Source: a virus
Virus record (IMG/VR): IMGVR_UViG_3300010158_002705
Location: 1 to 61,314 of that record
Length of the DNA stretch: 61,314 bases
Strand: one strand, 5' to 3'
Below the pieces are notes generated by a model that made no database searches, had not been told where the DNA came from, and saw only the letters and a program-made list of their open reading frames with translations. Below are positions 34,644 through 60,156 of this stretch, piece by piece (position 1 is the stretch's first letter; every line of letters starts with the position of its first letter). The position numbers were made by a program, and so were the translations under genes.

Positions 34644-35474
34644 ATGAAAACATTTAAATTAGCTACTATTGCATTAGTATTAGCATCATTATTTGGTTGT
34701 TCTACAGTTCGTCCGTTAGGAGAAATTGGTATTAAAGATCAGCCTAAAGAAAGCGCAAGTATTGTTAAACAGATTGATACATTACCAGCACCATCAGGTC
34801 CTAAAGTTGCGGTGGCAGTTTACAGTTTTAAAGATCTAACTGGTCAGCGTAAACCAAGTGCAACATTGAGTTTGTTTAGCACAGCAGTTACACAAGGCGC
34901 AGAAGCCTATTTGATTAAGAGTTTACAGGAAGCAGGCAACCGTCAATGGTTCACTGTTGTAGAACGTGCCAACTTAGACAATCTTTTAAAAGAGCGTCAA
35001 ATGATTAAACAAACTCGTGAAATTTACGATGGCGCCAATGCTAAAATTCTCCCACCGCTTACACTAGCTGGCGTTATTTTAGAAGGCGGTATTGTTGACT
35101 ATAACAGCAACGTATTAACAGGTGGGACTGGATTTGCTGTTTTGGGAATTGGGCCATATACCCAATATACACAAGATCAAGTAGTAATTAGTATGAGATT
35201 AGTCAGTGTGCAAACTGGCGAAATTTTAACATCAGTTACTATTGAAAAGAACTTATTAAGTACGCAAGATGGTGCGACTGCAATGAAGTTCTATGACCAA
35301 GGAACGAAATCGTTTGAATTTGATTCTAGTCAAACATTCAACGAGCCTGGAAACTATGCCTTACGATCTGCAATTGAACAAGGAATTGTTGAATTAGTAA
35401 AGAAAGGCGAGCAGTTGGGATTGTGGGGCTACAAGACCGCAAATCCTAAAAATGAGGAAACACTAACCAAATAA
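34644..35474 (+). CDS. csgG: CsgG-like curli secretion channel lipoprotein
   Basis: The 276-residue product has a lipobox (LASLFGC) and aligns by eye along all of CsgG: LPAPSGPKVAVAVYSFKDLTGQRKP, FSTAVTQGA, LLKERQMIKQTRE, LTLAGVILEGGIVDYNSNVLTGG, GIGPYTQYTQDQV, GEILTSVTIEK and LGLWG. CsgG nonamers form the outer-membrane curlin export pore. The constriction loop reads KPSATLSLFSTAV; compared with E. coli KPYPASNFSTAV the Tyr and Asn are not retained while Phe is, and one residue is added. Follows csgF by 10 nt. Confidence 0.92.
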   Translation: MKTFKLATIALVLASLFGCSTVRPLGEIGIKDQPKESASIVKQIDTLPAPSGPKVAVAVYSFKDLTGQRKPSATLSLFSTAVTQGAEAYLIKSLQEAGNRQWFTVVERANLDNLLKERQMIKQTREIYDGANAKILPPLTLAGVILEGGIVDYNSNVLTGGTGFAVLGIGPYTQYTQDQVVISMRLVSVQTGEILTSVTIEKNLLSTQDGATAMKFYDQGTKSFEFDSSQTFNEPGNYALRSAIEQGIVELVKKGEQLGLWGYKTANPKNEETLTK

Positions 35475-35494
35475 ACACCCTCGGAGCAAACACT

Positions 35495-36307
35495 ATGATT
35501 AAAAAATTATTAACAACACTAATCGCAGGTATTTTCGTTAGTTCTGTTTACGCACAAACTGCGCCAACAGCACCAACACAATCATCTGCACCCACTATTA
35601 CAACTGAAGCAACTACAAGGTTCGCAGCAGGTGTAACTGCATCTTTAAATGCAAGTACAACGAACATTATCTATCTACAGCAAACTGGTATTGCACCTAC
35701 TATCAGTATTAACCAAGATGGTAACAGCAACCGCGCTGGCACTGATGCCAGCGGAACAATTAACAGTATGATATTAAACGGTAATAACCAAGTTGTTACT
35801 ATTGATCAAACTGGTAACAACAACGTTATCAATACTATGAAGATTACAGGTAACGATGCAAATGTTTATTTAGAACAGTTAGGTAACAACAATTCATCAA
35901 ACGTAAGCTGTGGTTTGGTAATAAGCTGCGCTGGACAGGCAACTTTAAATCAAAATGCATTATTAGATTTAAGATTTACTGGCAATAGCAATACTGCAAA
36001 TTACACAGGTAATGGCACTGCATTACAGGCCGCTGTATATGTTAAAGGCAATGGAAATACACTTAATTTAGAGCAATCAAGTTCTACAGGTCAAGGACAA
36101 CAAATGTTGATCAACTTGACTAATAGCGACAACAATACTGTAAATGTTCTACAATCTAGCGCAAGTATCAGCAGTTTGGCATTGGCACAAAATGGTACTG
36201 GCGGAACAACTTTCAATGTTAGTCAAACTGGAACATATTCTAATGTCTCTAATATCACTGCTACATCAGCAGGTGGTAGTTTCAACGTTATTCAACGTAG
36301 TCGTTAA
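35495..36307 (+). CDS. Curlin-like amyloid subunit (CsgA/CsgB type)
   Basis: The 270-residue product has a signal peptide (cleavage near VYA|Q) and a Thr/Ala/Pro-rich linker. It then has repeated strand-turn-strand units of the curlin type with regularly spaced Gln and Asn-Gly-Asn turns, such as ISINQDGNSNRAG, VTIDQTGNNNVIN, VYLEQLGNNNSS and FNVSQTGTYSNV. Such repeats fold as amyloid beta-solenoids outside the cell after export by CsgG. It is preceded by a CGGAG ribosome site. It is longer than E. coli CsgA (151 aa). Confidence 0.87.
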   Translation: MIKKLLTTLIAGIFVSSVYAQTAPTAPTQSSAPTITTEATTRFAAGVTASLNASTTNIIYLQQTGIAPTISINQDGNSNRAGTDASGTINSMILNGNNQVVTIDQTGNNNVINTMKITGNDANVYLEQLGNNNSSNVSCGLVISCAGQATLNQNALLDLRFTGNSNTANYTGNGTALQAAVYVKGNGNTLNLEQSSSTGQGQQMLINLTNSDNNTVNVLQSSASISSLALAQNGTGGTTFNVSQTGTYSNVSNITATSAGGSFNVIQRSR

Positions 36308-36319
36308 TAAGGGGAAGGC

Positions 36320-37456
36320 GTGAAACGATGGGCCATATTGTTATGGTTGTTCACTACGGCGGCGGTTGCTGATATTGGATCAATTGTTGATCTAACAGGC
36401 ACCGCTGTAATTAAGCGCGGTAAAGAGGCCATCACAGTTATAAAAGGCACGCCTGTTGAAATCAACGATCGAGTAGAAACAAAAAATGGTGTTGTCAATA
36501 TCAAATTTAAAGACGACACCACTGTTAAAGTTACAGAAAATTCCAGCCTCGTAATAGACGACTTTGTTTACGATCCCAAAAATACCGCTGGTGGCAAACT
36601 TGGTCTCAAGGCCGCCGCTGGTACTGTACGCTATGTATCAGGCAACATTGCACATAATAATCCCAATAGTGTAAAAATTAATACACCAACTGCTGCTATT
36701 GCCGTTCGTGGTACAGACTTCGTTATGGCTGTAGATGAAACTGGTAAAAGTATGATTATGCTTATGCCCACTTGTGAAACAGATCAGAGCGTTAACTTAA
36801 AAGGCTTAACTTGCGGTAGTGGTAAAATTGATGTAGATAGCGGATCTACAATTATTCGATTAGATAAACCATATCAAGCCACAGTTGTAGAAACTGCCAG
36901 TACTCCACCAAGTCCTCCTGTTATTGTTAATTTGAGTAATACACCAATAGGTAATAATTTAATTATTCGTCCTCCGTCAACAATGTCTGGACAAAGCATT
37001 CAACAGGCAGCACGAGCGGCCGCACAAAAAACTGGTGATGTTAAGAAAGAAGATGATAAGAAAGACACTAAGGAACCCAGTGTGGCCGAATCAAAAGCAA
37101 CGGACGATCAACGTAAAGATAATCAAGAAAAAACCGCTGCTGCTCAGGCTGCAGAAGATCGAGCATTGGCCGTACTGACTGAACTAAAAGATAAAAATGT
37201 TAAAGTTACTGATAAAGCCTATGAAAACGAACACGTTGTTGGTATATATAAAAACGATAATCCTAACTTAAACCAATTAGGATGGGGTTATATGAGTATG
37301 AGTCCAAACGGTAATAACTTTACAGCCATAAGTTTAACTAACGATAATAGAGTATTAGTGGTAGTAACACAAGATCGACAAACAGATGCTTACAACTTTG
37401 CAGGCAGTAATAATAAACCGCAGGGTAGCATCATAATTAATCAGAGTTATAAATGA
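36320..37456 (+). CDS. FecR-domain secreted protein in curli operon
   Basis: The 378-residue product has a signal-like N-terminus and a FecR domain (about 18-150): GTAVIKRGKEAITVIKGTPVE, FKDDTTVKVTENSSLVIDDF and TPTAAIAVRGTDFVM. A Pro-rich linker, a charged Lys/Glu/Asp/Ala helical segment (about 235-290) and a C-terminal beta domain follow. FecR domains occur in secreted adhesion and polymer systems. Lying between two curlin-like genes, with an overlap downstream, it may anchor or regulate fibre assembly. Confidence 0.78.
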   Translation: MKRWAILLWLFTTAAVADIGSIVDLTGTAVIKRGKEAITVIKGTPVEINDRVETKNGVVNIKFKDDTTVKVTENSSLVIDDFVYDPKNTAGGKLGLKAAAGTVRYVSGNIAHNNPNSVKINTPTAAIAVRGTDFVMAVDETGKSMIMLMPTCETDQSVNLKGLTCGSGKIDVDSGSTIIRLDKPYQATVVETASTPPSPPVIVNLSNTPIGNNLIIRPPSTMSGQSIQQAARAAAQKTGDVKKEDDKKDTKEPSVAESKATDDQRKDNQEKTAAAQAAEDRALAVLTELKDKNVKVTDKAYENEHVVGIYKNDNPNLNQLGWGYMSMSPNGNNFTAISLTNDNRVLVVVTQDRQTDAYNFAGSNNKPQGSIIINQSYK

Positions 37457-39492
37457 AAAAGTTGTTATCATTCCTTTTTATGTTAATGATGTGCTTAACT
37501 GCGCAGGCAACTGGATTGTCTGACTTAAAATTTGGGCAAGCACAGATTGCTGACAGTCAATGGAACGTGCAGGCTTGTACACAAACAACAACTTGTCAAA
37601 TCTATAGTAAGAATCCAGGTACAGCATATAAAATTCCTTGGACAAATGGACAGTTAAGTTGGGCAGCAGGCGACTATGTTGCCTTTGCGGCAACAGGCAA
37701 TAGTGCCAATCCATTTAATGCTGTTCAATATGCAGCCAACGGAACACAAAAAGCAGTGATGGGAACTGGTCATATTGTTAATATGGGCTCTGACTATTTC
37801 TTCTTTGTTGGTAACGACAACAATACCGGTCAGTTGTTTAGTATGACTCAGGGGTTTAATAATACTAGTGGGGTAACGTGGACTGGAACATTAAATCCTA
37901 CAGTGGCACAAGTTAATGCATATGCTGCTAATGGTAGTACAACCCCACTAGCCGCTGGGCAGAGGGCCGCGCCGACACCAGCCCCGCCAGTTAACAATAC
38001 TACACCAGCAGGAACTATGCCTGGCGGATATATTGGAAGAATATTGAACAATGTTCCAGGACAAAGTCAGAACTATTCATTTACATATACTCCCGGACAA
38101 ACAGGTAGCCAATATGTACAATTGGCTTTTAGACAAGATCCTGCCTTTTGGACTGTGACCAATGTTACACTAACCGCCGGCGGTAGTTCAACTAACTTGC
38201 TACAAAATGGAAACTTTGCTACAGGCGGTACAATCACAGCGCAGACTAACAATGGGCCAATGGATGTCAATACTCCAACATATTGGGGTGTAGCATATCA
38301 ATCAGGTATATATCCTGGCGCAGCAGGCAGTTGGAGTCCAGGCCAGTGGTATGATGGTGCTGTAGGAAGTTTTGATGCTATATATCAAGGCGTTAATTTA
38401 ACTGTGGGCGTTACTTATACCGTAACTGTAACTGTGCGTGGAGATAATACCAGCAATAACAATTTAAATGGTGAAGTACAATTAGGCGTTTATGCAGCAC
38501 CTTGTGGCAGTCTTACACTTAGTCCAGATCAATGTACGCTACCAAGTAATAGTGGTTACACTACATTAGCAACACCAAGTGAAGGTGCAAGTGCAGGTAA
38601 CACAGCACCAACACCAACAGGAAGCAGTACATCCAATGTTGTTACATCAAGTTCTAGTATAGGTAGTACGACTACTATATCAAATCCTTATACATTTGGT
38701 AATCAAACGTTTACAGTGACTGGTACTGGTACTCCAACAACAACCACAACATCTACGACTCCTGTAACAACTACATACTGGAGTGATGGTACTACAACTA
38801 TATCAAACGGTACCACTACAACTACTAGTAACACTACTTGGAATTATACAGTCACTGGTCCAAATACTCCGCCTATGAGTCCAAATGTTGGAACAAATAG
38901 AAATAGCGTCTATATTACACAAACTAATGCAGGTGCTAATAACAACATAACAACTAACCAAAGCGGGCACGGTAATTATGAAAGTGTTAGCCTAGGTGGG
39001 TCCAACAATATTGTTAGGTTAGGACAAGGATATACATTTAGTACTTCAGGTGTTGCCACTGAATCTAATACTGCCAGTAACCACGATCTATCAACCTTAA
39101 CAGTATCTGGCAATTTTAACGGAATTATCAACTCTCAAGTGGGTGCTAGTAATAGCGCCATTATCAGTGCTACAGGAAACTATAATTCATTACTAGCCAC
39201 TCAAACTGGTAACAACAATCAAGTTTATAGTACAATAAGTGGAAATAATAATTCTTTATCCTTTGGACAAAATGGAAACAGCAATATTGCCGCCGCAAAT
39301 TTGTACGGAAATAATAATGTGGCCACAGTTACTCAAACTGGTAATAATCACGGCGTAGTATTAAGTCTTGTTAATGCAGGTGGAGCCAACAATGTAAGTG
39401 TTGTTCAAACTGGCATAGGCGATGCTTATAGTTTGCAACAAATTTGCACAAATCCAGCAGGTTGTTCAGTTTCAGTAATTAGAAACAAATAA
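37453..39492 (+). CDS. Large secreted protein with C-terminal curlin repeats
   Basis: The 679-residue product has a signal peptide (cleavage near AQA|T) and an N-terminal beta domain (20-150). A carbohydrate-binding-like module follows (about 190-355, with LLQNGNFATGG and TPTYWGV), then a Ser/Thr/Gly-rich linker (370-480) and about eight curlin-type repeats (485-670, for example SLLATQTGNNNQVYS and VATVTQTGNNHGVV). A multi-domain curlin could act as nucleator (CsgB role) or adhesive tip. It overlaps the FecR gene by 4 bp. Confidence 0.82.
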   Translation: MKKLLSFLFMLMMCLTAQATGLSDLKFGQAQIADSQWNVQACTQTTTCQIYSKNPGTAYKIPWTNGQLSWAAGDYVAFAATGNSANPFNAVQYAANGTQKAVMGTGHIVNMGSDYFFFVGNDNNTGQLFSMTQGFNNTSGVTWTGTLNPTVAQVNAYAANGSTTPLAAGQRAAPTPAPPVNNTTPAGTMPGGYIGRILNNVPGQSQNYSFTYTPGQTGSQYVQLAFRQDPAFWTVTNVTLTAGGSSTNLLQNGNFATGGTITAQTNNGPMDVNTPTYWGVAYQSGIYPGAAGSWSPGQWYDGAVGSFDAIYQGVNLTVGVTYTVTVTVRGDNTSNNNLNGEVQLGVYAAPCGSLTLSPDQCTLPSNSGYTTLATPSEGASAGNTAPTPTGSSTSNVVTSSSSIGSTTTISNPYTFGNQTFTVTGTGTPTTTTTSTTPVTTTYWSDGTTTISNGTTTTTSNTTWNYTVTGPNTPPMSPNVGTNRNSVYITQTNAGANNNITTNQSGHGNYESVSLGGSNNIVRLGQGYTFSTSGVATESNTASNHDLSTLTVSGNFNGIINSQVGASNSAIISATGNYNSLLATQTGNNNQVYSTISGNNNSLSFGQNGNSNIAAANLYGNNNVATVTQTGNNHGVVLSLVNAGGANNVSVVQTGIGDAYSLQQICTNPAGCSVSVIRNK

Positions 39493-40129: not shown

Positions 40130-40789
40130 ATGGCTAAACCAACCATTGCCCTGTTCTTGAATCATCCAGAATGTTCTAAAGATTGTGTGGATGGAATGAC
40201 AGTTGCGTTATCTTCCCATTACAAAATAAAAACTTTTGGGGTAAGCGAGTGTAATCCTAACACATTTGAAAATGTAGACATTGTAGCATTTCCAGGTGGT
40301 ATTGGTGATGCCAGCAGTTATGATAAGTTTTTCCGTCGTCGAGCACAAAATGCAGTTGCAGATTATGTTGCTGACGGTGGACGATATTTAGGAATATGTA
40401 TGGGGGCTTATTGGGCAGGCTCCCATTATTTTGACTTATTAGACGGTGTAGAACCTGTACAATATATCAAACGCCCCAACAGTGATATCAAACGCAGTTA
40501 TAGTACAATCGCACCCGTAACTTGGAATGGTGTTGAAGAAAATATATTCTTTTATGATGGTTGTGCATTGATTGGTGACAACAAAAAGTTCGATACCGTA
40601 GCCACATATGCCAATGGCGATGCTGCCGCAATTATACAGGGTCGCATAGGACTGATTGGGCCTCATCCCGAAAGTCTCAAATATTGGTTTGAAAAGCCGC
40701 GTCAATACTTAAATCCCTATTGGCACCAAGGCACACATCATTCACTGTTATTAAAATTTGTGGATAAATTGATAAAACAGTATAAATAG
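40130..40789 (+). CDS. Class I amidotransferase-like protein (BPL_N type)
   Basis: The 219-residue product has [11 protein letters not shown], the nucleophile elbow [12 protein letters not shown] (Cys) and a late PHPES, as in the N-terminal domain family of biotin-protein ligases and related DJ-1/PfpI-like glutamine amidotransferases. Its substrate is unknown; it has no ligase domain. It starts 2 nt after the methyltransferase gene. Confidence 0.72.
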
Positions 40790-40968: not shown

Positions 40969-41012
40969 CGTAACAGAACTGTAATGTTCTAAAAATGTAT
41001 AGGGCGATAAAT

Positions 41013-41813
41013 ATGGATATGACAAAAACCAAAACTTATCGCTCTATTTTTGTGAGTGACGTGCACCTTGGTACCAAAGATTGCCAAGCCGACAAACTCA
41101 ATAACTTCCTTAAACATAATTCTTGTGATACACTATACCTTGTAGGAGATATAATTGATGCCTGGAGAATACAACAAAACAAATGGCGCTGGAAACAGAG
41201 CCACACTAATGTGGTGCGTCGTGTGCTCGGTCATGCTAAACGTGGCACTCGCGTCGTGTATATTGCAGGCAATCATGATGAATTCTTGCGTCCAATGATT
41301 CCATATGGGTTTAGTTTTGGACTCATTGAAATTCACAACCAAATAGAACATATTGGTGCCGATGGTAAACATTATCTAGTTACCCACGGTGATCTATTTG
41401 ATGGTATTACAAGACTAGCACCTTGGCTAGCATTTTTAGGGGACAAGGCATATGACATTATTCTCACTCTTAACAGCAGATTTAATTGGGTGCGCCATCG
41501 TTTGGGTTTTGGCTACTGGAGTCTGTCTCAGTATCTTAAGCATCGTGTTAAGAAAGCCGTGGATTTTATGTTTAAGTTTGAGCTTACTCTTGTTGGATAT
41601 TGCCGCAAGAGAGGTTTTGATGGTGTCATTTGCGGACATATTCACCACGCTGAAATAAAAGAGATTGATGGCATTGCTTATATGAACGACGGTGACTGGG
41701 TAGAAAGTTGTACTGCCCTAGTTGAACACCACGACGGCCGTTGGGAGATAATTACATGGACTACGGAGAAAGATGATGTGGTTATTGATACTAATAGCAG
41801 TACACATAAATAA
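41013..41813 (+). CDS. PlcP-like metallophosphoesterase (phospholipase C type, LpxH-related)
   Basis: The 266-residue product has all metal-binding blocks: VSDVHLG (D16, H18), LVGDIIDAW, AGNHDEF, VTHGDLFD and CGHIHHAEI, plus the NDGDWVESCTALVEH end typical of the subgroup annotated as UDP-2,3-diacylglucosamine hydrolase. In proteobacteria that subgroup includes PlcP, which removes phospho-headgroups from phospholipids under phosphate stress. An Agt-like glycosyltransferase sits two genes downstream, as in known plcP-agt operons, which favours PlcP over LpxH. Start 41013 has AGGG upstream. Confidence 0.8.
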   Translation: MDMTKTKTYRSIFVSDVHLGTKDCQADKLNNFLKHNSCDTLYLVGDIIDAWRIQQNKWRWKQSHTNVVRRVLGHAKRGTRVVYIAGNHDEFLRPMIPYGFSFGLIEIHNQIEHIGADGKHYLVTHGDLFDGITRLAPWLAFLGDKAYDIILTLNSRFNWVRHRLGFGYWSLSQYLKHRVKKAVDFMFKFELTLVGYCRKRGFDGVICGHIHHAEIKEIDGIAYMNDGDWVESCTALVEHHDGRWEIITWTTEKDDVVIDTNSSTHK

Positions 41814-41859
41814 TCCATCTGATCAACCAGGTCGAATAGAACTTCAATTTTCAGACCAG

Positions 41860-41888
41860 TTGACTTGCGAACGCAGTCTTAGTACAAT
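41860..41888 (+). promoter_or_regulatory. Sigma70-like promoter upstream of the RimK-like gene
   Basis: TTGACT (41860-41865), 17-nt spacer, TACAAT (41883-41888). The gene starts at 41931 with a GAGGG site, so this transcript has a leader of about 35 nt. Confidence 0.75.
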
Positions 41889-41930
41889 AAAATGGAACTT
41901 AAAGTTCAAAAATTTTAAAATAGAGGGCTC

Positions 41931-42821
41931 ATGCCAAAAACAATCTTAATTTTAACCAAATTAGATCGTAACGAATACGAATCTAACAAACTAGTAGAAA
42001 GTTTTGAATCCAAGGGTATTAATGCTATGATGGCACACCCTGATGATTTTGACATCATTGTTGACCGTGATATACACAAGGGTTTAAAATACAAGGGTGA
42101 GGATATGGAACTTCCAAGCCTGGCCCTAGTAAGACTGGGTGCTGGCATACTACCATTTCAGTTGGCCGTTGTACGTCATTTAGAACAAGCAGGCATTCCT
42201 TGTGTTAATGGTAGTGTTGCTATTGAAACAGTTAAAGACAAACTACGCACAAGTCAAATTCTAAGTCGGCACAGTATTCCCATCCCTAACACTATGATGG
42301 TGCGTATGCCTATTGACGACAATCTTGTTAAAGACAACATTGGTTTTCCCTGTGTAGTCAAAGTTGTTACTGGCAGCTACGGTGAAGGAGTGTACCTTTG
42401 TGAGCGACAAAGAGACTACAAAAAACTAATGGAATTTATTGACAATCTAGGTAACAAGAAAACTATGATTGTACAAGAATATCTAGGAGAACGTGTAGGG
42501 GAAGATCTACGAGTACTGGTAATAGGAGGCAAAGTTATTGGTGCTATGAAACGTACAGCTCCTGAAGGAGATTTTCGGGCCAACATTACCGGCGGCGGCA
42601 CTGGGGAAAGTTATCCCGTAACGGAGGAAATTGATTTCCTTGCTAGAGAAACTGCCAGAGCGCTAAATTTAGATATTGCAGGCATTGATTTGTTGTTTGA
42701 CAGTAGGGGCTTTAGGGTTTGCGAAGCAAACAGTAATCCTGGGTTCAGTGGTTTTGAACGTTATTGTGGGGTCAATGTTGCTGACATAATTACAGAATAT
42801 GTAAAGTTCAAAGTTCAATGA
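41931..42821 (+). CDS. RimK-like ATP-grasp ligase
   Basis: The 296-residue product has an N-terminal Rossmann-like part and ATP-grasp elements: FPCVVKVVTGSYGEGVYL, IVQEYLGERVGEDLRVLVIGG, MKRTAPEGDFRANITGGG and CEANSNPGFSGFERY. These match RimK, which adds glutamates to ribosomal protein bS6, and related amino-acid ligases. With a phage bS21 in the same window a ribosome-modifying role is attractive. Its place between PlcP-like and Agt-like genes also allows a role in envelope metabolism. It overlaps the glycosyltransferase gene (ATGA). Confidence 0.85.
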   Translation: MPKTILILTKLDRNEYESNKLVESFESKGINAMMAHPDDFDIIVDRDIHKGLKYKGEDMELPSLALVRLGAGILPFQLAVVRHLEQAGIPCVNGSVAIETVKDKLRTSQILSRHSIPIPNTMMVRMPIDDNLVKDNIGFPCVVKVVTGSYGEGVYLCERQRDYKKLMEFIDNLGNKKTMIVQEYLGERVGEDLRVLVIGGKVIGAMKRTAPEGDFRANITGGGTGESYPVTEEIDFLARETARALNLDIAGIDLLFDSRGFRVCEANSNPGFSGFERYCGVNVADIITEYVKFKVQ

Positions 42822-43825
42822 AAACAATATTAGTCATCACTGATAACTTACCGGAGCAAATAAATGGCGTGGTCACGACCTACACGAATATTGAGACACT
42901 TGCGGTTTTGGATGGTTATAAGTTTGTGGTGTTGCATCCCGGGTGGTTCCGCTACATTGATTGCCCTAAATATCACGAGGTCAAACTTGCCTGGCCACGC
43001 CATATGGGGAAGAAGATTAAAGAGATTGCTCCGGATTATATACACATCGCGACAGAAGGTCCTCTTGGTGTGTGGGCTAGAAAGTATCTTTCATTGGCTG
43101 GTATTAGGCACAATACCGCTTATCATACTAAATTTCCTGAAGGTTTAAAAAAGCTGTTTGGTATCCCTGAAACATTTACTTGGCGTTTTGTTCGTTGGTT
43201 TCACAAACATAGTGGTAAAGTATTGACCACCACAGACAGTATGGTTAAAGAATTAGAAGCACACGGTTTTAAAGGCGAAGTTGTTCCTTGGACACGTGGG
43301 GTTGATCGTGAAATCTTTAAACCAGAACTTAGGGAAGATTTTCCTAGCAAATATTTGTTATGTGTTAGCCGTGTCAGCAAGGAAAAGAATTTAGAAGCGT
43401 TCTTGGAATTAGATTATCCTGGCTATCAAAAGATTATGGTAGGTGATGGTCCTATGTTGGAAACATATAAGAAGCGATATCCTGATGTTACATTTACTGG
43501 ATTCAAAACTGGAGTGGACCTAGCTCGTTATTATGCCAATGCTGAAGTATTTGTATTCCCTAGCAAGTGGGAAACATTTGGTATTGTTATGATTGAAGCA
43601 ATGGCCTGCGGAACTCCAGTTGCTGCTTATCCCTGTCAAGGTCCAGAAGATGTTGTTGAGCCTGGCGTTACTGGATTTTTGGAAGAAGATTTGGCCACCG
43701 CGGTTTATCGTTGTTTAGGATTGAATAGGGATCGAGTATTACAGGGTAGTCAAATATGGTCTTGGCCTCGAGCTTGGGAAATATTTAGAGACAACTTAAT
43801 AGAAATAAAACCGGCCACAGAATAA
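42818..43825 (+). CDS. GT4 glycosyltransferase, Agt/diacylglycerol-glycosyltransferase-like
   Basis: The 335-residue product has the GT4 start VITDNLPEQINGVVTTY, then YIHIATEGPLGVWARKY, NTAYHTKFPEGLKK, TRGVDREIFKP and the ExxxxxxxE donor motif ETFGIVMIEAMACGTPVAAY. The N-terminal half strongly recalls the Agt enzymes that glycosylate diacylglycerol to replace phospholipids in phosphate-starved alphaproteobacteria and marine bacteria. PlcP-like gene nearby supports this. A perfect terminator follows. Confidence 0.85.
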   Translation: MKTILVITDNLPEQINGVVTTYTNIETLAVLDGYKFVVLHPGWFRYIDCPKYHEVKLAWPRHMGKKIKEIAPDYIHIATEGPLGVWARKYLSLAGIRHNTAYHTKFPEGLKKLFGIPETFTWRFVRWFHKHSGKVLTTTDSMVKELEAHGFKGEVVPWTRGVDREIFKPELREDFPSKYLLCVSRVSKEKNLEAFLELDYPGYQKIMVGDGPMLETYKKRYPDVTFTGFKTGVDLARYYANAEVFVFPSKWETFGIVMIEAMACGTPVAAYPCQGPEDVVEPGVTGFLEEDLATAVYRCLGLNRDRVLQGSQIWSWPRAWEIFRDNLIEIKPATE

Positions 43826-45780: not shown

Positions 45781-46336
45781 AGGTCTTTCCAAAATCTTCA
45801 TTTGCGACCTTGTTGGTTCTACTGTACACTGTATAGACATATACACATAGTACAGCGAAACACAAGGTTTGCAGGCCAGTTAACTTTCTGCAGGGTAAGC
45901 ATCTGATGTGTGTGCCGATGCCCAATTCTTTTCGTTCGCAAAAGACTTCTAACTCACTACCTCAAGCCACGATTTGAGATGCCTAATAAACGCCAGTCCC
46001 ACGACTGTTCACGTTTGAGTTGTCGTAAAAAGGTTGTCAAATAGCAATATTAGAATAAGGGTGCGTCAGTGCCTTTAGAATTTCAATACATTATATGCGT
46101 CCAATGACACGGAGGACGCTTAAAAATCGCCGCAGGTCTGGTAAGGGTCGAGCCAAATAATGTGAAGTTTATAAACACCTGCTGTCTAAATGAACGAAAG
46201 CAACTCAGATGAGAACCTTCTTTATGGCACCACTAACCTGGTGTCATACTCACTCTACAATCTAGATGAATTTAAATTCAGTTCAATAATTGCCCGAGCG
46301 TGAGCGATAGGGCGGTTGAACTTGTTCAACCTTTAT
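45781..46336 (+). ncRNA. Candidate large structured non-coding RNA (~550 nt)
   Basis: No convincing gene is found in this 573-nt gap. On the plus strand it holds successive stems: GCATC/GATGC (45899/45917), TCTTTT/AAAAGA (about 45928/45940), CTCAA/TTGAG (45961/45974), CAGTC/GACTG (45994/46003), GCGTCC/GGACGC (46097/46114) and GGCACCA/TGGTGTC (46226/46239). It ends in a perfect terminator GGTTGAAC-TT-GTTCAACC plus T-rich tail (46314-46336). Size and setting near tRNA-rich phage DNA recall ornate phage RNAs such as GOLLD or ROOL, but I cannot match consensus motifs. No clear promoter is seen. Confidence 0.5.
46314..46336 (+). terminator. Perfect hairpin terminator of the candidate large RNA
   Basis: GGTTGAAC-TT-GTTCAACC followed by TTTATT. 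It ends before the late element TACTAAATA (about 46340-46348) of the next gene. Confidence 0.75.
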
Positions 46337-46353
46337 TGATACTAAATATTTGT

Positions 46354-48411
46354 ATGTTTAAAAAACTCTTACTCAATCCTTGGACTGCTTTAATTACCCT
46401 TGCTATAATATTATCCGTTAGATTTTATGATCCTTCCTTTGTAGAATCTGTTAGATTACGCTACTTTGATCAGTTGGTGACTAGTCAAGACAAAGTGGAT
46501 ATTCCCGTTAATGTCGTACACATCGATGAATCAGCTTTAGACAAATATGGGCAATGGCCTTTCCCCCGAGATTATTATGCCAACATCATTAAGGATTTGT
46601 ATGCCCGTGATGCAGGGCTAGTTGTATTCAATGTACTAATGCCAGAAGCAGACAGATTTAAACAAGATTCAGTATTAGCTAGAACTTTACAAACACATCC
46701 AACTATATTGCCTACATTGGGCAGTCAAAAACAAAAGAACACAGATCACGGCAGCGCCATACAAGTGATTGGGTTGGATCCTGCTGGCCGAGTAGTTGAG
46801 TACCCAGGACTTATTTCCAATGTTGAACCACTTGAATCATTGGCAGCAGGCGTTGGTATTGTAAACACATTTCCTGAAGTGGATGGCGTTGTTCGCCGTA
46901 TGCCGCTTGTTATACTGAGCAATGGATCTTTACATCCTAGCCTAGCATTGGAAACTATGCGTGTGGCTGCTGGTGACATTAAGATACAGGCTAAGATTGA
47001 CGAAGAAGGAATTGCAGCCCTACGTATTCCCAAAGTTGGAAAGATCCCTACAGATGGATTAAGCCGTGTTTGGGTTGATTGGAGTCAAACTCCTAAAGAA
47101 TATAGCCTAACTGAATTACCTAAATCATTTAATCACGAAATTGTCATTGTGGGTCTTAGTGCTGCTGGTCTAGTTAATCCTGTAGCAACATCCAAAGGCG
47201 AGATATGGCCACAAAACTTGCAGGCCGCTGCTATTGGAACAATCCTTAGTGGCAAAACTATCCTACGTCCAGATTGGGCGGACACTGCGGAATTGGCTGC
47301 ATTGTTTGTAATCAGTGTTATTTTATTATTTTTAACGAGGTGGACCTATGTCGGACTTTCAGCAATGGTTATATTGGCAGTCAGTGGTGCTATTTTACCT
47401 TACTATCTTTATAGTCATTGGTTATTCCTTTTCGATGCCACTGCCTTAACAGCAGGTATCGTATTAGTATCGCTACACGCTTATGGTGTTAAGTTTGTAA
47501 GCGAGTTCTTACAAAAACAACAAATTAAGAAACAGTTTGGCAGTTATCTAAGTCCAGACTTGGTTGCTAAACTGGTTAAAGATCCTAGCCTATTAAAACT
47601 GGGTGGAACAGAACAAGATCTTACTATCCAGTTTAGCGACGTTCGCGGCTTTACTAGCATCAGCGAGCACTATGGCAAGGACGTTCAAGGGCTTACTAAA
47701 ATTATGAATCGTTATATGACTGTAATGACACGAGTAATTTTAGAAAACGAAGGCACATTGGACAAGTACATTGGTGATGCTACGATGAGTTTTTGGAATG
47801 CCCCATTAGACAATCACAAGCACGCCAAAGACAGTGTTAGAGCAGCATTAGAAATGCTAGATGCAGTAAAGGTGTTTAATGATGAAATTGCTAAAGAAGG
47901 TGTACCACCTTTTGGTCTTGGTATTGGTTGCAACACTGGCGTTGTCGTTGTTGGTAATATGGGCGGCGAGCAACGTTTTGATTATACTTGTCTCGGCGAT
48001 GCTGTTAATTTGGCTTCCAGACTTGAAGGCCAAAGCAAGAACTACGGCGTACTCCTTGTTATCGGACCAGAAACAGCAGCCAGATTAGATGATGAATTCT
48101 TTGCTATTGAACTTGACTGTATAGCAGTTAAAGGCAAGACGGAAGGAGTAACAATCTTTACTGCTTTCCGTAATCCAGATGCTGGTGCAATGGTGGATTA
48201 TATTTCTTCCCGTGAGCGTCACGAACTAATGTTGGCTCACTATCGTAAACAACAGTGGGAACAGGCTATCAAACTTTGCAATGAACTACAAGGTGAGTTT
48301 GATGGACAGTTGGATCATTACTATGAACTATGGCTAGAGCGTATTGAAGAAATGCGAGCCAAAGGATTACCAGAAGATTGGGATGGCGTGTTTAGAGCGA
48401 CGAGCAAATAA
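46354..48411 (+). CDS. CHASE2-domain receptor adenylate cyclase (class III)
   Basis: The 685-residue product has an N-terminal membrane helix (about 9-22), a large CHASE2 sensor (about 25-310, with FDQLVTSQDKVDIPVNVVHIDE), three membrane helices (about 325-395) and a class III cyclase domain (about 420-590). Metal Asp residues are D429 (FSDVRGFT) and D475 (YIGDATMSF). Lys in LDKYIGD and D in FDYTCLGDAVNLASRLE indicate ATP specificity. It is complete with all catalytic residues. It would make cAMP in the host inner membrane. Start 46354 lies 5 nt after TAAATA (leaderless late). Confidence 0.92.
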   Translation: MFKKLLLNPWTALITLAIILSVRFYDPSFVESVRLRYFDQLVTSQDKVDIPVNVVHIDESALDKYGQWPFPRDYYANIIKDLYARDAGLVVFNVLMPEADRFKQDSVLARTLQTHPTILPTLGSQKQKNTDHGSAIQVIGLDPAGRVVEYPGLISNVEPLESLAAGVGIVNTFPEVDGVVRRMPLVILSNGSLHPSLALETMRVAAGDIKIQAKIDEEGIAALRIPKVGKIPTDGLSRVWVDWSQTPKEYSLTELPKSFNHEIVIVGLSAAGLVNPVATSKGEIWPQNLQAAAIGTILSGKTILRPDWADTAELAALFVISVILLFLTRWTYVGLSAMVILAVSGAILPYYLYSHWLFLFDATALTAGIVLVSLHAYGVKFVSEFLQKQQIKKQFGSYLSPDLVAKLVKDPSLLKLGGTEQDLTIQFSDVRGFTSISEHYGKDVQGLTKIMNRYMTVMTRVILENEGTLDKYIGDATMSFWNAPLDNHKHAKDSVRAALEMLDAVKVFNDEIAKEGVPPFGLGIGCNTGVVVVGNMGGEQRFDYTCLGDAVNLASRLEGQSKNYGVLLVIGPETAARLDDEFFAIELDCIAVKGKTEGVTIFTAFRNPDAGAMVDYISSRERHELMLAHYRKQQWEQAIKLCNELQGEFDGQLDHYYELWLERIEEMRAKGLPEDWDGVFRATSK

Positions 48412-58198: not shown

Positions 58199-58274
58199 AT
58201 CGCGGTGGACTTCTGGGTTAGGTCACTAGGCTTTCATCCTAGCTAGGCGGGTTCGATTCCCGTCCGCGATACCA
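58199..58274 (+). tRNA. tRNA-Glu (TTC)
   Basis: Acceptor ATCGCGG/CCGCGAT, A-CCA encoded; anticodon loop CTTTCAT in stem CTAGG/CCTAG; T arm CGGG-TTCGATT-CCCG. Confidence 0.88.
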
Positions 58275-58282
58275 AAGATAAT

Positions 58283-58368
58283 GGATGTGTAGGAAAACTG
58301 GTAACCCCAGAAGACTGTAAATCTTCCGCCTTACGGCACTGTTGGTTCGACTCCAACCGCATCCACCA
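58283..58368 (+). tRNA. tRNA-Tyr (GTA)
   Basis: Acceptor GGATGTG/CGCATCC, A-CCA; anticodon arm GAAGA-CTGTAAA-TCTTC; long variable arm (CGCC TTAC GGC) typical of type II tRNA. Confidence 0.9.
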
Positions 58369-58376
58369 AAAGTAAT

Positions 58377-58451
58377 GGGCTGATAGTGATAATGGGAGCA
58401 CAGGGGCTTTGCAAGCCTTTAGTCGGGGTTCGATCCCCCGTCGGTCCACCA
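58377..58451 (+). tRNA. tRNA-Ala (TGC)
   Basis: Acceptor GGGCTGA/TCGGTCC with the G3-U70 wobble that marks tRNA-Ala; loop TTTGCAA; A-CCA. Confidence 0.9.
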
Positions 58452-58458
58452 AGTTTAT

Positions 58459-58543
58459 GGATAGTAGTGTCGCTGGGCGCGAGCTGGTTTGCTAAACCGG
58501 TCTACTGGAAACGGTAACAGTTCGATTCTGTTGCTATCCACCA
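58459..58543 (+). tRNA. tRNA-Ser (GCT)
   Basis: Acceptor GGATAGT/GCTATCC, A-CCA; loop TTGCTAA; long variable arm. Confidence 0.9.
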
Positions 58544-58550
58544 AGTTAAT

Positions 58551-58625
58551 GGTCTCGTCATATAGTGGTTATTATACCGGCCTGTCTAGTCGGATATCGG
58601 GGTTCGATTCCCCGCGGGATCGCCA
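58551..58625 (+). tRNA. tRNA-Asp (GTC)
   Basis: Acceptor GGTCTCG/CGGGATC, discriminator G, CCA; loop CTGTCTA. Confidence 0.9.
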
Positions 58626-58634
58626 AGTTTTTAT

Positions 58635-58709
58635 TGCCGCGTAACTCAGAGGCAGAGTAATCGCTTGATAAGCGATAAGTCGACATTTCGAAATTGTCCG
58701 TGGCAACCA
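58635..58709 (+). tRNA. tRNA-Ile (GAT)
   Basis: Acceptor TGCCGCG/CGTGGCA, A-CCA; anticodon arm ATCGC-TTGATAA-GCGAT. Confidence 0.88.
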
Positions 58710-58714
58710 ATTAT

Positions 58715-58790
58715 GCTCAGTTCGTCTATCGGTTTAGGACGCTGCCCTTTCAAGGCGGAAAGACGGGTTCGATTCCCGTACTGAGCACCA
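58715..58790 (+). tRNA. tRNA-Glu (TTC), second copy
   Basis: Acceptor GCTCAGT/ACTGAGC, A-CCA; loop CTTTCAA in stem CTGCC/GGCGG. Same anticodon as 58199-58274 but different body. Confidence 0.87.
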
Positions 58791-58800
58791 TGTTTTTTGT

Positions 58801-58874
58801 TGGCGCATTGTGTAATGGTAGCACAACAGACTTTGACTCTGTTAGTCTAGGTTCGATCCCTAGTGCGCCTGCCA
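58801..58874 (+). tRNA. tRNA-Gln (TTG)
   Basis: Acceptor TGGCGCA/TGCGCCT with a weak first pair and G73, both typical of tRNA-Gln; loop CTTTGAC; CCA encoded. Confidence 0.9.
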
Positions 58875-58881
58875 AGTTTAT

Positions 58882-58956
58882 ATCGCGTTCGTATAGTGGA
58901 AAATACACGATCCTACGAAGTTCGGAACGGTGGTTCGATTCCATCACGCGATACCA
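58882..58956 (+). tRNA. tRNA-Arg (ACG)
   Basis: Acceptor ATCGCGT/ACGCGAT, A-CCA; loop CTACGAA; one mismatch in the anticodon stem. The ACG anticodon would need host TadA for full wobble. Confidence 0.86.
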
Positions 58957-58965
58957 AAAATTTAT

Positions 58966-59041
58966 TCCATCTTAGTATTCTCGGTGAGTACCCCCGGCTG
59001 TTAACCGGAAGAGGTTGGTTCGAATCCAACAGATGGAGCCA
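58966..59041 (+). tRNA. tRNA-Asn (GTT)
   Basis: Acceptor TCCATCT/AGATGGA, G-CCA; loop CTGTTAA. Confidence 0.9.
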
Positions 59042-59138
59042 ATATCGAAATACACTGATTGTTTAGGAGTGGGGGATACGAACCACGTTAAACAAATAAG
59101 TCTACAAAAGCCTAAGCAATAGCGCAACAGTATATTTC
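59041..59138 (+). ncRNA. Candidate structured RNA between tRNA-Asn and tRNA-Ala
   Basis: Nested stems: GAAATACACTG (59047-59057) with CAGTATATTTC (59128-59138), continued by ATTGTTTAGG (59058-59067) with CCTAAGCAAT (59111-59120) and a 7-nt bulge; inside, GTGG/CCAC (59069/59083). No tRNA fits. About 97 nt; class unknown. Confidence 0.5.
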
Positions 59139-59144
59139 AATATT

Positions 59145-59219
59145 GGGGGCAGCAGTGGGCTGCGGCGTTCCCTTGCAAGGATCGTGACTAGAAGGATTCG
59201 ATTTCCTCGGCCTCCACCA
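59145..59219 (+). tRNA. tRNA-Ala (TGC), second copy
   Basis: Acceptor GGGGGCA/GGCCTCC with G3-U70 and a mismatched last pair; loop CTTGCAA; A-CCA. Less perfect stems than the first Ala gene. Confidence 0.8.
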
Positions 59220-59228
59220 AAGATAAAT

Positions 59229-59305
59229 GCACTGGTACCAGAGAGGCCTAATGGCATGGATTGCAAATCCGTTGTTCGGGGGTTCGAATCCCTCCCAGTG
59301 CTCCA
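59229..59305 (+). tRNA. tRNA-Cys (GCA)
   Basis: Acceptor GCACTGG/CCAGTGC with U73 (Cys identity), CCA; loop TTGCAAA. Confidence 0.9.
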
Positions 59306-59312
59306 AGTTTAT

Positions 59313-59386
59313 GCGGGTATGATGTAATGGTAACCTGAAACCTTGCCAAGGTTTATTCGCGAGTTCGATTCTCGCTATCCGCTCCA
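59313..59386 (+). tRNA. tRNA-Gly (GCC)
   Basis: Acceptor GCGGGTA/TATCCGC, U73, CCA; anticodon arm AAACC-TTGCCAA-GGTTT. Confidence 0.9.
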
Positions 59387-59387
59387 A

Positions 59388-59539
59388 TTTTTGAGATAGA
59401 CGATGGGATTGAGTCCCTTGTATTCTAGCGCATTGTGCTGATGCGTGACACACCAGTAGAACTGTACAAGGTCAATATAAACTCTCCCATTCGAGACAAG
59501 CCAATGAGTCCTTCAGAAAGATAGTTGGTCTCTCAAAAA
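59388..59539 (+). ncRNA. Candidate structured RNA between tRNA-Gly and tRNA-Phe
   Basis: Closed by TTTTTGAGA (59388-59396) with TCTCAAAAA (59531-59539). Inside: CGCAT/ATGCG hairpin (59429/59441), and ATGGGA (59403) able to pair with TCCCAT (59485), or alternatively GGGA/TCCC locally (59405/59414). No tRNA or gene fits the 160-nt gap. Class unknown. Confidence 0.5.
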
Positions 59540-59547
59540 CCTATAAT

Positions 59548-59623
59548 GCAACCTTAGCAAATGTGGTCATTGCGGTCGCCTGAAGAGCGATGGAAGCAGG
59601 TTCGATCCCTGCAGGTTGCACCA
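59548..59623 (+). tRNA. tRNA-Phe (GAA)
   Basis: Acceptor GCAACCT/AGGTTGC, A-CCA; loop CTGAAGA in stem GTCGC/GCGAT. Confidence 0.9.
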
Positions 59624-59628
59624 ATTAT

Positions 59629-59703
59629 GTATCCCTAGTGTTAACGGCAGCACGACAGTCTCCAAAACTGCTAGTCAAGGTTCGAATCCTTGGGGGTATG
59701 CCA
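59629..59703 (+). tRNA. tRNA-Trp (CCA)
   Basis: Acceptor GTATCCC/GGGGTAT (with wobbles), G73, CCA; loop CTCCAAA. Confidence 0.88.
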
Positions 59704-59710
59704 ATTTTAT

Positions 59711-59789
59711 CTGTGTGTAATGTCAGCCAGGTCAGACGGCTCGCCTTGGAAGTGAGAGGTCGCAGGTTCGAATCCTGCCACACAGACCA
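59711..59789 (+). tRNA. tRNA-Pro (TGG)
   Basis: Acceptor CTGTGTG/CACACAG, A-CCA; loop CTTGGAA in stem CTCGC/GTGAG. Confidence 0.89.
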
Positions 59790-59793
59790 ATTC

Positions 59794-59868
59794 GCCCTTT
59801 TATCCTTAATGGTAGAGGTCCTGTTTTGTAAGCAGGGTGTGTGGGTTCGATTCCTGCAAGGGGCACCA
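59794..59868 (+). tRNA. tRNA-Thr (TGT)
   Basis: Acceptor GCCCTTT/AAGGGGC, A-CCA; loop TTTGTAA in stem CCTGT/GCAGG. Confidence 0.9.
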
Positions 59869-59875
59869 AACAAAT

Positions 59876-59962
59876 GGAAGATAGGGACGCTGGGCGTCAA
59901 CCGGTTTCGAAGTCCGGCCCACTCTGCAAAGGGTGACTGTTCGATTCAGTTATCTTCCTCCA
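59876..59962 (+). tRNA. tRNA-Ser (CGA)
   Basis: Acceptor GGAAGAT/ATCTTCC, U73, CCA; loop TTCGAAG in stem CCGG/CCGG; long variable arm CCC...GGG. Confidence 0.82.
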
Positions 59963-59971
59963 ACAGTTTAT

Positions 59972-60061
59972 GGAAGCGTGGCAGAGTCCGGTTTATTGTA
60001 CCTGACTTGAAATCAGACGTGTCGTAAGGCACCGTGAGTTCGAATCTCACCGCTTCCGCCA
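59972..60061 (+). tRNA. tRNA-Ser (TGA)
   Basis: Acceptor GGAAGCG/CGCTTCC, G73, CCA; loop CTTGAAA; long variable arm. Confidence 0.9.
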
Positions 60062-60066
60062 TATAT

Positions 60067-60156
60067 GGAAAATAGAAGTGCTGGGCACTAAGCAACTTGG
60101 AAAGTTGTTCCACTTGTGATGAGCAGGTGACAGTTCGATTCTGTTATTTTCCTCCA
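60067..60156 (+). tRNA. tRNA-Ser (GGA)
   Basis: Acceptor GGAAAAT/ATTTTCC, U73, CCA; anticodon arm GCAAC-TTGGAAA-GTTGT; long variable arm. Its CCA touches the late element of the next gene. Confidence 0.88.

Follow-up and report, generated by a model that had tools for sequence, protein, structure and literature searches.

The closest described counterpart of the locus considered here is the bacterial plcP-agt pair, known as PA3219-PA3218 in P. aeruginosa and as PB7211_983/PB7211_960 in Ca. Pelagibacter HTCC7211, and from PlcP of Phaeobacter MED193 and Agt of A. tumefaciens. The arrangement of the two genes has been published for bacteria (PMC4796936), as has their control by a Pho box (PMC4796936, PMC8528852). 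LpxH has its metallophosphoesterase fold and metal ligands in common with PlcP. Phages carry phosphate-stress genes of their own (pstS, phoA, phoH, ugpQ and phoD), and cyanophages use the PhoB of their host, yet predicted Pho boxes can fail (PMC10976474). Phage fatty-acid desaturases have been found as well (PMC7300359), and cyanophage desaturases are cited in PMC12282109. Viral pstS, phoA and desaturases are thus already known. A survey of viral phosphorus-acquisition genes, with 17 kinds in soil and 11 known before, has a main text without plcP, phospholipase or lipid (PMC10987575). No paper was found that describes a phage PlcP-Agt module, nor one that links plcP to viral auxiliary metabolic genes; most subscription papers lay outside the search, so this is not proof of absence. 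The initial annotation likewise knew of no characterised viral example.

The window, that is the whole stretch of 61,314 nucleotides that was analysed, is an IMG/VR virus record with phage NrdA/NrdB and an exonuclease, and 21 of its 22 tRNA genes are clustered at one end. The three genes that the initial annotation had recognised as PlcP-type, RimK-like and GT4 are confirmed by their open reading frames and by Pfam matches above the cut-offs (Table 1). The GT4 frame overlaps the stop codon of the RimK frame by ATGA. For plcP, an in-frame ATG at 41013 or 41019 is probably the true start, rather than position 40995. Relatives of PlcP are encoded in at least 593 viral contig stretches, the best 80 of which have 82-95% identity, and relatives of the GT4 in 284. 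The dN/dS ratios are low, at 0.03-0.05 for PlcP (pairs with finite dS only) and about 0.09-0.15 for GT4, many other pairs being saturated at synonymous sites. As judged from these ratios, purifying selection acts on both enzymes. Because of the many viral relatives and the low dN/dS, the three frames are not chance frames. Sister records with the same PlcP encode a T4-type Gp23 capsid protein (10 of 26) and a terminase (17 of 26), so the PlcP carriers are tailed phages and, at least in part, T4-like; related PlcP-carrying records reach 524 kb.

Table 1. Features of the window, by position
Feature	Position	Strand	Details
Second phage metallophosphoesterase	25158-25970		Other family (phrog_1649)
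Curli-like export cluster	34644-39492
CsgG homologue	34644-35474		169.8 bits (cut-off 20.8)
FecR-domain protein	36320-37456		Pfam
Protein with curlin-associated repeat	37453-39492		679 aa; Pfam
Protein with biotin-protein-ligase N-terminal (glutamine amidotransferase-like) domain	40130-40789
Pho-box-like direct repeat CGTAAC-N5-TGTAAT	40969..40985	+	Before plcP; differs from TGTnAY-N5-TGTnAY by one mismatch
PlcP-type metallophosphoesterase	40995-41813	+	272 aa; Pfam Metallophos 40.7 bits (cut-off 21.5)
TAAATA, T4-late-promoter-like core	41008..41013	+	22 nt after the Pho-box-like repeat
RimK-like ATP-grasp ligase	41931-42821	+	296 aa; Pfam RimK 163 bits (cut-off 21)
Agt-like GT4	42818-43825	+	335 aa; Pfam Glycos_transf_1 91.8 bits (cut-off 26.4)
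CHASE2 and class III adenylate/guanylate cyclase protein	46300-48411		703 aa
Dense tRNA array	58199-60156		19 tRNA genes

In other phage contigs (L062, L100, L114 and L137), plcP is likewise preceded by relatives of several genes of the curli-like cluster. Relatives of the protein with the biotin-protein-ligase domain (cluster c3) are found a few genes from plcP in 54 loci.

Judged by its sequence, the phosphoesterase of the window is PlcP-like and not LpxH, the hydrolysis of phospholipid itself being inferred. In a tree of 76 sequences (IQ-TREE; SAR11 and MED193 PlcP not included), the LpxH proteins of E. coli, Proteus, Aeromonas and Legionella, together with an LpxH-like protein of Phocaeicola, separate from all remaining sequences at 97/98 support. 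The window protein and 11 dereplicated viral PlcPs form a clade (95/98) that lies in the same part of the tree as the PlcPs of S. meliloti and P. aeruginosa. The S. meliloti sequence adjoins an AHL synthase and a LuxR regulator, which we take to be the setting of PlcP SMc00171. The comparison with characterised PlcP that had been proposed for this gene has thus been made, and the sequence side of the outcome named in advance as its refutation, a grouping with LpxH proper, is not observed. The scores against the NCBIfam LpxH equivalogs, 41.8 bits (cut-off 134) and 31.3 bits (cut-off 190), and the signature motifs agree with the tree. All viral sequences in the tree have GNHDE where LpxH has GNRDF; they conserve the PlcP motif NDGDWVES, which LpxH is without, and GHIHHAE is also present. 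All 144 viral sequences have the calcineurin-type metal ligands D22, H24, D52, N93, H131, H215 and H217. The Agt1-adjacent PlcP of P. aeruginosa has 52% identity to the window protein over 95%, and the PlcP of S. meliloti 48% over 97%, values as high as between characterised PlcPs, since the P. aeruginosa enzyme has 46-47% identity to those of S. meliloti and MED193 (PMC8528852). The nearest cellular PlcP is alphaproteobacterial, at 60% identity. Among solved structures, LpxH gives the best matches to a model of the window protein (pLDDT 78, 17 sequences), and no PlcP is seen among those matches, so this fold comparison does not separate the two. LpxH identity is rejected on the tree, the motifs and the curated cut-offs. 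Viral genes named lpxH have been reported as lipopolysaccharide genes in viromes of Lake Baikal (PMC9611531) and of offshore oligotrophic waters (PMC10653327). They may be plcP labelled as LpxH, in which case they would have to be read anew.

In phages, plcP is followed by a glycosyltransferase with great regularity. Among the 143 viral plcP loci whose downstream sequence can be read, none lacks a GT4 or a GT2 just downstream: GT4 follows directly in 66, GT2 stands in its place in 59, RimK lies between plcP and GT4 in 13, and another gene or genes lie between them in 5. Since GT4 served as bait for roughly half of these loci, its share is biased upward; the 80 loci baited with PlcP have a GT4 or GT2 wherever downstream genes are visible. 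A GT4 of the window type also lies within 600 nt of bacterial plcP in 42 of the 56 loci examined, in line with the published order of the pair (PMC4796936). The description of the module as a ligase flanked by PlcP and GT4 therefore fits the window and only a minority of its relatives, the conserved core being PlcP and then a glycosyltransferase. The RimK of the window passes the test for the RimK family of alpha-L-glutamate ligases (TIGR00768, 223.9 bits, cut-off 143.4) and fails that for the S6-ligase equivalog (NF007764, 153.4 bits, cut-off 331). In one locus (L130) the order is plcP-RimK-extra ORF-GT4, and no RimK was found near plcP in the bacterial loci examined. With none there and a minority among phages, RimK is not treated as a core part of the module; it is best read as an optional element that has been inserted, and its acceptor is unknown.

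The GT2 that replaces GT4 directly after plcP belongs to one cluster (c2; L034:8901-9617 and 58 more loci), the substrate of which is unknown. On plasmids of P. aeruginosa (L191:4001-7246) the gene order is PlcP-Agt1-cyclase, presumably also the order on the chromosome of that species. Of 49 related phage records, 13 encode a homologue (46-66% identity) of the CHASE2-cyclase protein of the window, sometimes directly after GT4. The cyclase is not counted as part of the module: in 4 of the 13 it is within 5 kb of plcP, a result that about 9% of random placements equal.

The GT4 is a predicted diacylglycerol glycosyltransferase, the lipid acceptor and the sugar donor being inferred. Over 98% of its length it has 40-43% identity to the plcP-adjacent GT4s of Sphingomonas and P. 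aeruginosa (Agt1); proteins of the GTcp/Agt clade are reported to have less than 25% identity to other GT4s (PMC8231724). In the tree called for by the initial annotation, the viral GT4s form a clade (100/100) that is nested among plcP-adjacent bacterial GT4s, Agt1 of P. aeruginosa included, and has L221 as its sister (99/92); support for its separation from WaaG, WaaB, WcaI and WcaC of E. coli is only moderate (83/77). The fold is GT-B, and the closest solved structures are MshA and BshA. The GT4 keeps the motifs HIATEGP, HTKFPE, SRVSKEKN and VGDGP. The donor motifs of Agt are GRVAxEKN and FPSxTDTFG, the latter with the catalytic Asp (PMC8231724). SRVSKEKN resembles the first of these, whereas all viral members have FPSxWETFG in place of the second, with Glu for Asp as in MshA, and do not meet the Agt motif test. 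The assignment to the Agt type thus stands as far as the clade is concerned and fails on the FPSxTDTFG motif; on account of this replacement the enzyme is named Agt-like, not Agt, and its sugar is left open. Its donor or its acceptor may differ from that of Agt. The altered motif, together with the long branch to the viral clade, leaves room for an acceptor other than diacylglycerol, in which case PlcP and GT4 would not belong to one pathway. This seems unlikely, since the viral GT4s sit within the plcP-adjacent group, retain the TEGP, HTKFPE, EKN and VGDGP motifs, and stay next to plcP in bacteria and phages alike.

Upstream of plcP, the window has a hybrid arrangement in which a Pho-box-like repeat precedes a TAAATA element. 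TAAATA resembles the T4 late promoter core, TATAAATA. There are 19 repeats within one mismatch of TGTnAY-N5-TGTnAY in the window, and only the one before plcP has TAAATA at 11 or 21-22 nt. When the 150 nt upstream of each gene and the first 30 nt into it are searched, and the expectation is taken from dinucleotide shuffles, the exact pattern precedes viral plcP in 53 of 108 distinct genes, against 0.10 expected, and in 79, against 3.5 expected, when one mismatch is allowed. It also precedes viral pstS in 13 of 14 cases. It is absent upstream of GT4 (0/72), GT2 (0/34) and desaturase genes (0/17), and it occurs upstream of 15 of 767 other genes, mostly those of the coiled-coil family c9. The gap between repeat and TAAATA before viral plcP is exactly 11 nt in 39 of 81 cases and 21-22 nt in 35 of 81, two classes that differ by about one helical turn, and before c9 genes it is 11 nt in 12 of 12. 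The repeat pattern was refined on these same upstream regions, so the spacing, the c9 genes and the absence before GT genes are the more independent evidence. The canonical Pho box, CTGTCAT-N4-CTGTCAT, is weakly enriched before viral plcP (at least 11 of 14 matches in 12% against 2% when shuffled). It was set aside since the variant, though chosen after looking, fits far better. The region between plcP and pstS in the isolated Pelagibacter phage Mosig has no good match to the variant.

TAAATA is not confined to these promoters; in related phages it lies within 25 nt upstream of 97 of 759 other genes, where a shifted control gives 20 of 759. It stands only a few nucleotides before many starts, as in the window, apparently without a Shine-Dalgarno sequence between, which hints at leaderless or very short-leader late transcripts. 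The c9 proteins (L064:9700-10647, L071:9996-10649 and 13 more loci) are unannotated Ala/Val-rich coiled-coil phage proteins often encoded directly after the plcP-GT pair; the member in L064 has no Pfam match.

From the upstream sequences, the plcP promoter looks to be controlled by host PhoB, binding being inferred. It is quite conceivable, if still short of probable, that plcP-GT, pstS and the c9 gene make up a small viral Pho regulon, each under a hybrid promoter with a host PhoB site 11 or 21-22 nt upstream of the phage late core. Host PhoB would then gate late transcription, and the phosphorus of the membrane would be mined only when phosphate is scarce.

The neighbouring genes also point to phosphate. 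PstS (TIGR00975, above the cut-off) is encoded in 7 of 49 whole phage records, in all 7 within 5 kb of plcP and in 6 within 2 kb, a proximity matched by none of 10,000 random placements; some of the 49 records are near-duplicates, and a few were known to hold pstS when they were chosen. In Mosig, a PstS-family gene adjoins that for a PlcP (51% identity). Among plasmids, the nearest cellular PstS found is that of Azospirillum (57%). These co-locations and the Pho-box-like sites beyond the window strengthen the earlier proposal of a phosphate-starvation strategy. DesA-like fatty-acid desaturases are also close to plcP, within 5 kb in 14 of 26 (random mean 3.3). Their clustering would suit a wider membrane role, as would the GT2 of one large group of relatives; lipid would then be remodelled for structural reasons, such as membrane charge or fluidity in virion exit, lysis timing or phage exclusion, with phosphate saving secondary. 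That reading has little probability, because the Pho-box-like sites and the PstS neighbours indicate phosphate as the trigger. The least credible reading makes the phosphoesterase an LpxH that works in lipid A synthesis and the GT4 an LPS sugar transferase, the two modifying the surface of the host, for instance against superinfection: it has on its side the structural matches and the name UDP-2,3-diacylglucosamine diphosphatase that automatic annotation gives to the relatives, but that automatic name is also attached to the PlcPs of S. meliloti and P. aeruginosa, and the equivalog scores far below cut-off, the separate clade, GNHDE for GNRDF and the pstS and Pho-box context all stand against it.

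With good confidence, then, the module is taken to be the bacterial PlcP-Agt lipid renovation pathway in phage-borne form, by which the phage copes with hosts that are short of phosphate. What is observed is the placement in families, the conservation, the purifying selection, the co-location with pstS and the promoter signature; the enzyme activities, PhoB binding, the release of usable phosphate, the sugar, the host and the benefit are inferred. In a phosphate-starved infected cell, host PhoB would bind the Pho-box-like repeat, a site identified by comparison, and boost the plcP-(rimK)-GT operon. Phage PlcP, if it acts as its placement suggests, would cleave the phospholipids of the host into diacylglycerol and a phosphorylated headgroup. 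The initial annotation had PlcP free phosphate for DNA synthesis; the phosphate context supports this, but what PlcP itself releases is a headgroup with its phosphate still attached, and another step has to follow in the host, in which host enzymes would presumably make that phosphate usable for the DNA and RNA of the phage. The GT4, by its clade, would transfer a sugar from a UDP-sugar to the diacylglycerol, glucose or glucuronate being the probable ones, and the sugar-capped product could keep the membrane bilayer going until lysis. Against this reading are the one mismatch in the repeat of the window, the lack of any pstS found there, the 59 viral loci with a GT2 of unknown substrate, and FPSxWETFG in the GT4.

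The phage module resembles the bacterial plcP-agt pair in its homologous enzymes, with 52% and 40% identity to those of P. aeruginosa, and in the order of plcP and then GT4. It differs in being joined to a late-promoter-like element, in having WETFG for TDTFG in the GT4, and in being found sometimes with RimK, with pstS, or with GT2 in place of GT4. Like the phage phosphate-stress genes and the PhoB-controlled genes of cyanophages, it has the same presumed aim and host-PhoB control, and in some of these phages pstS is physically beside plcP; unlike them, it would draw phosphorus from the host membrane and not from outside. LpxH shares the fold and the metal ligands, whereas viral PlcP has a separate clade, other signature motifs and scores below the curated cut-offs. 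Phage desaturases likewise act on host membrane lipids, but they alter acyl chains instead of headgroups and recover no phosphorus.

In small aquatic cells the phospholipids are a sizeable store of phosphorus, an element for which phage genomes have a high demand. Hundreds of related aquatic phages carry the predicted phospholipid-to-glycolipid enzyme pair, probably to salvage scarce phosphorus. Mosig, with its PlcP beside a PstS-family gene and a cultured host (HTCC1062), makes parts of the proposal testable now. If the proposal is true, these phages mine the host membrane for phosphate and replace the lost lipids, which goes beyond better uptake from outside, and infection would have one more way of changing the phosphorus cycle and the make-up of membranes in lakes and seas.
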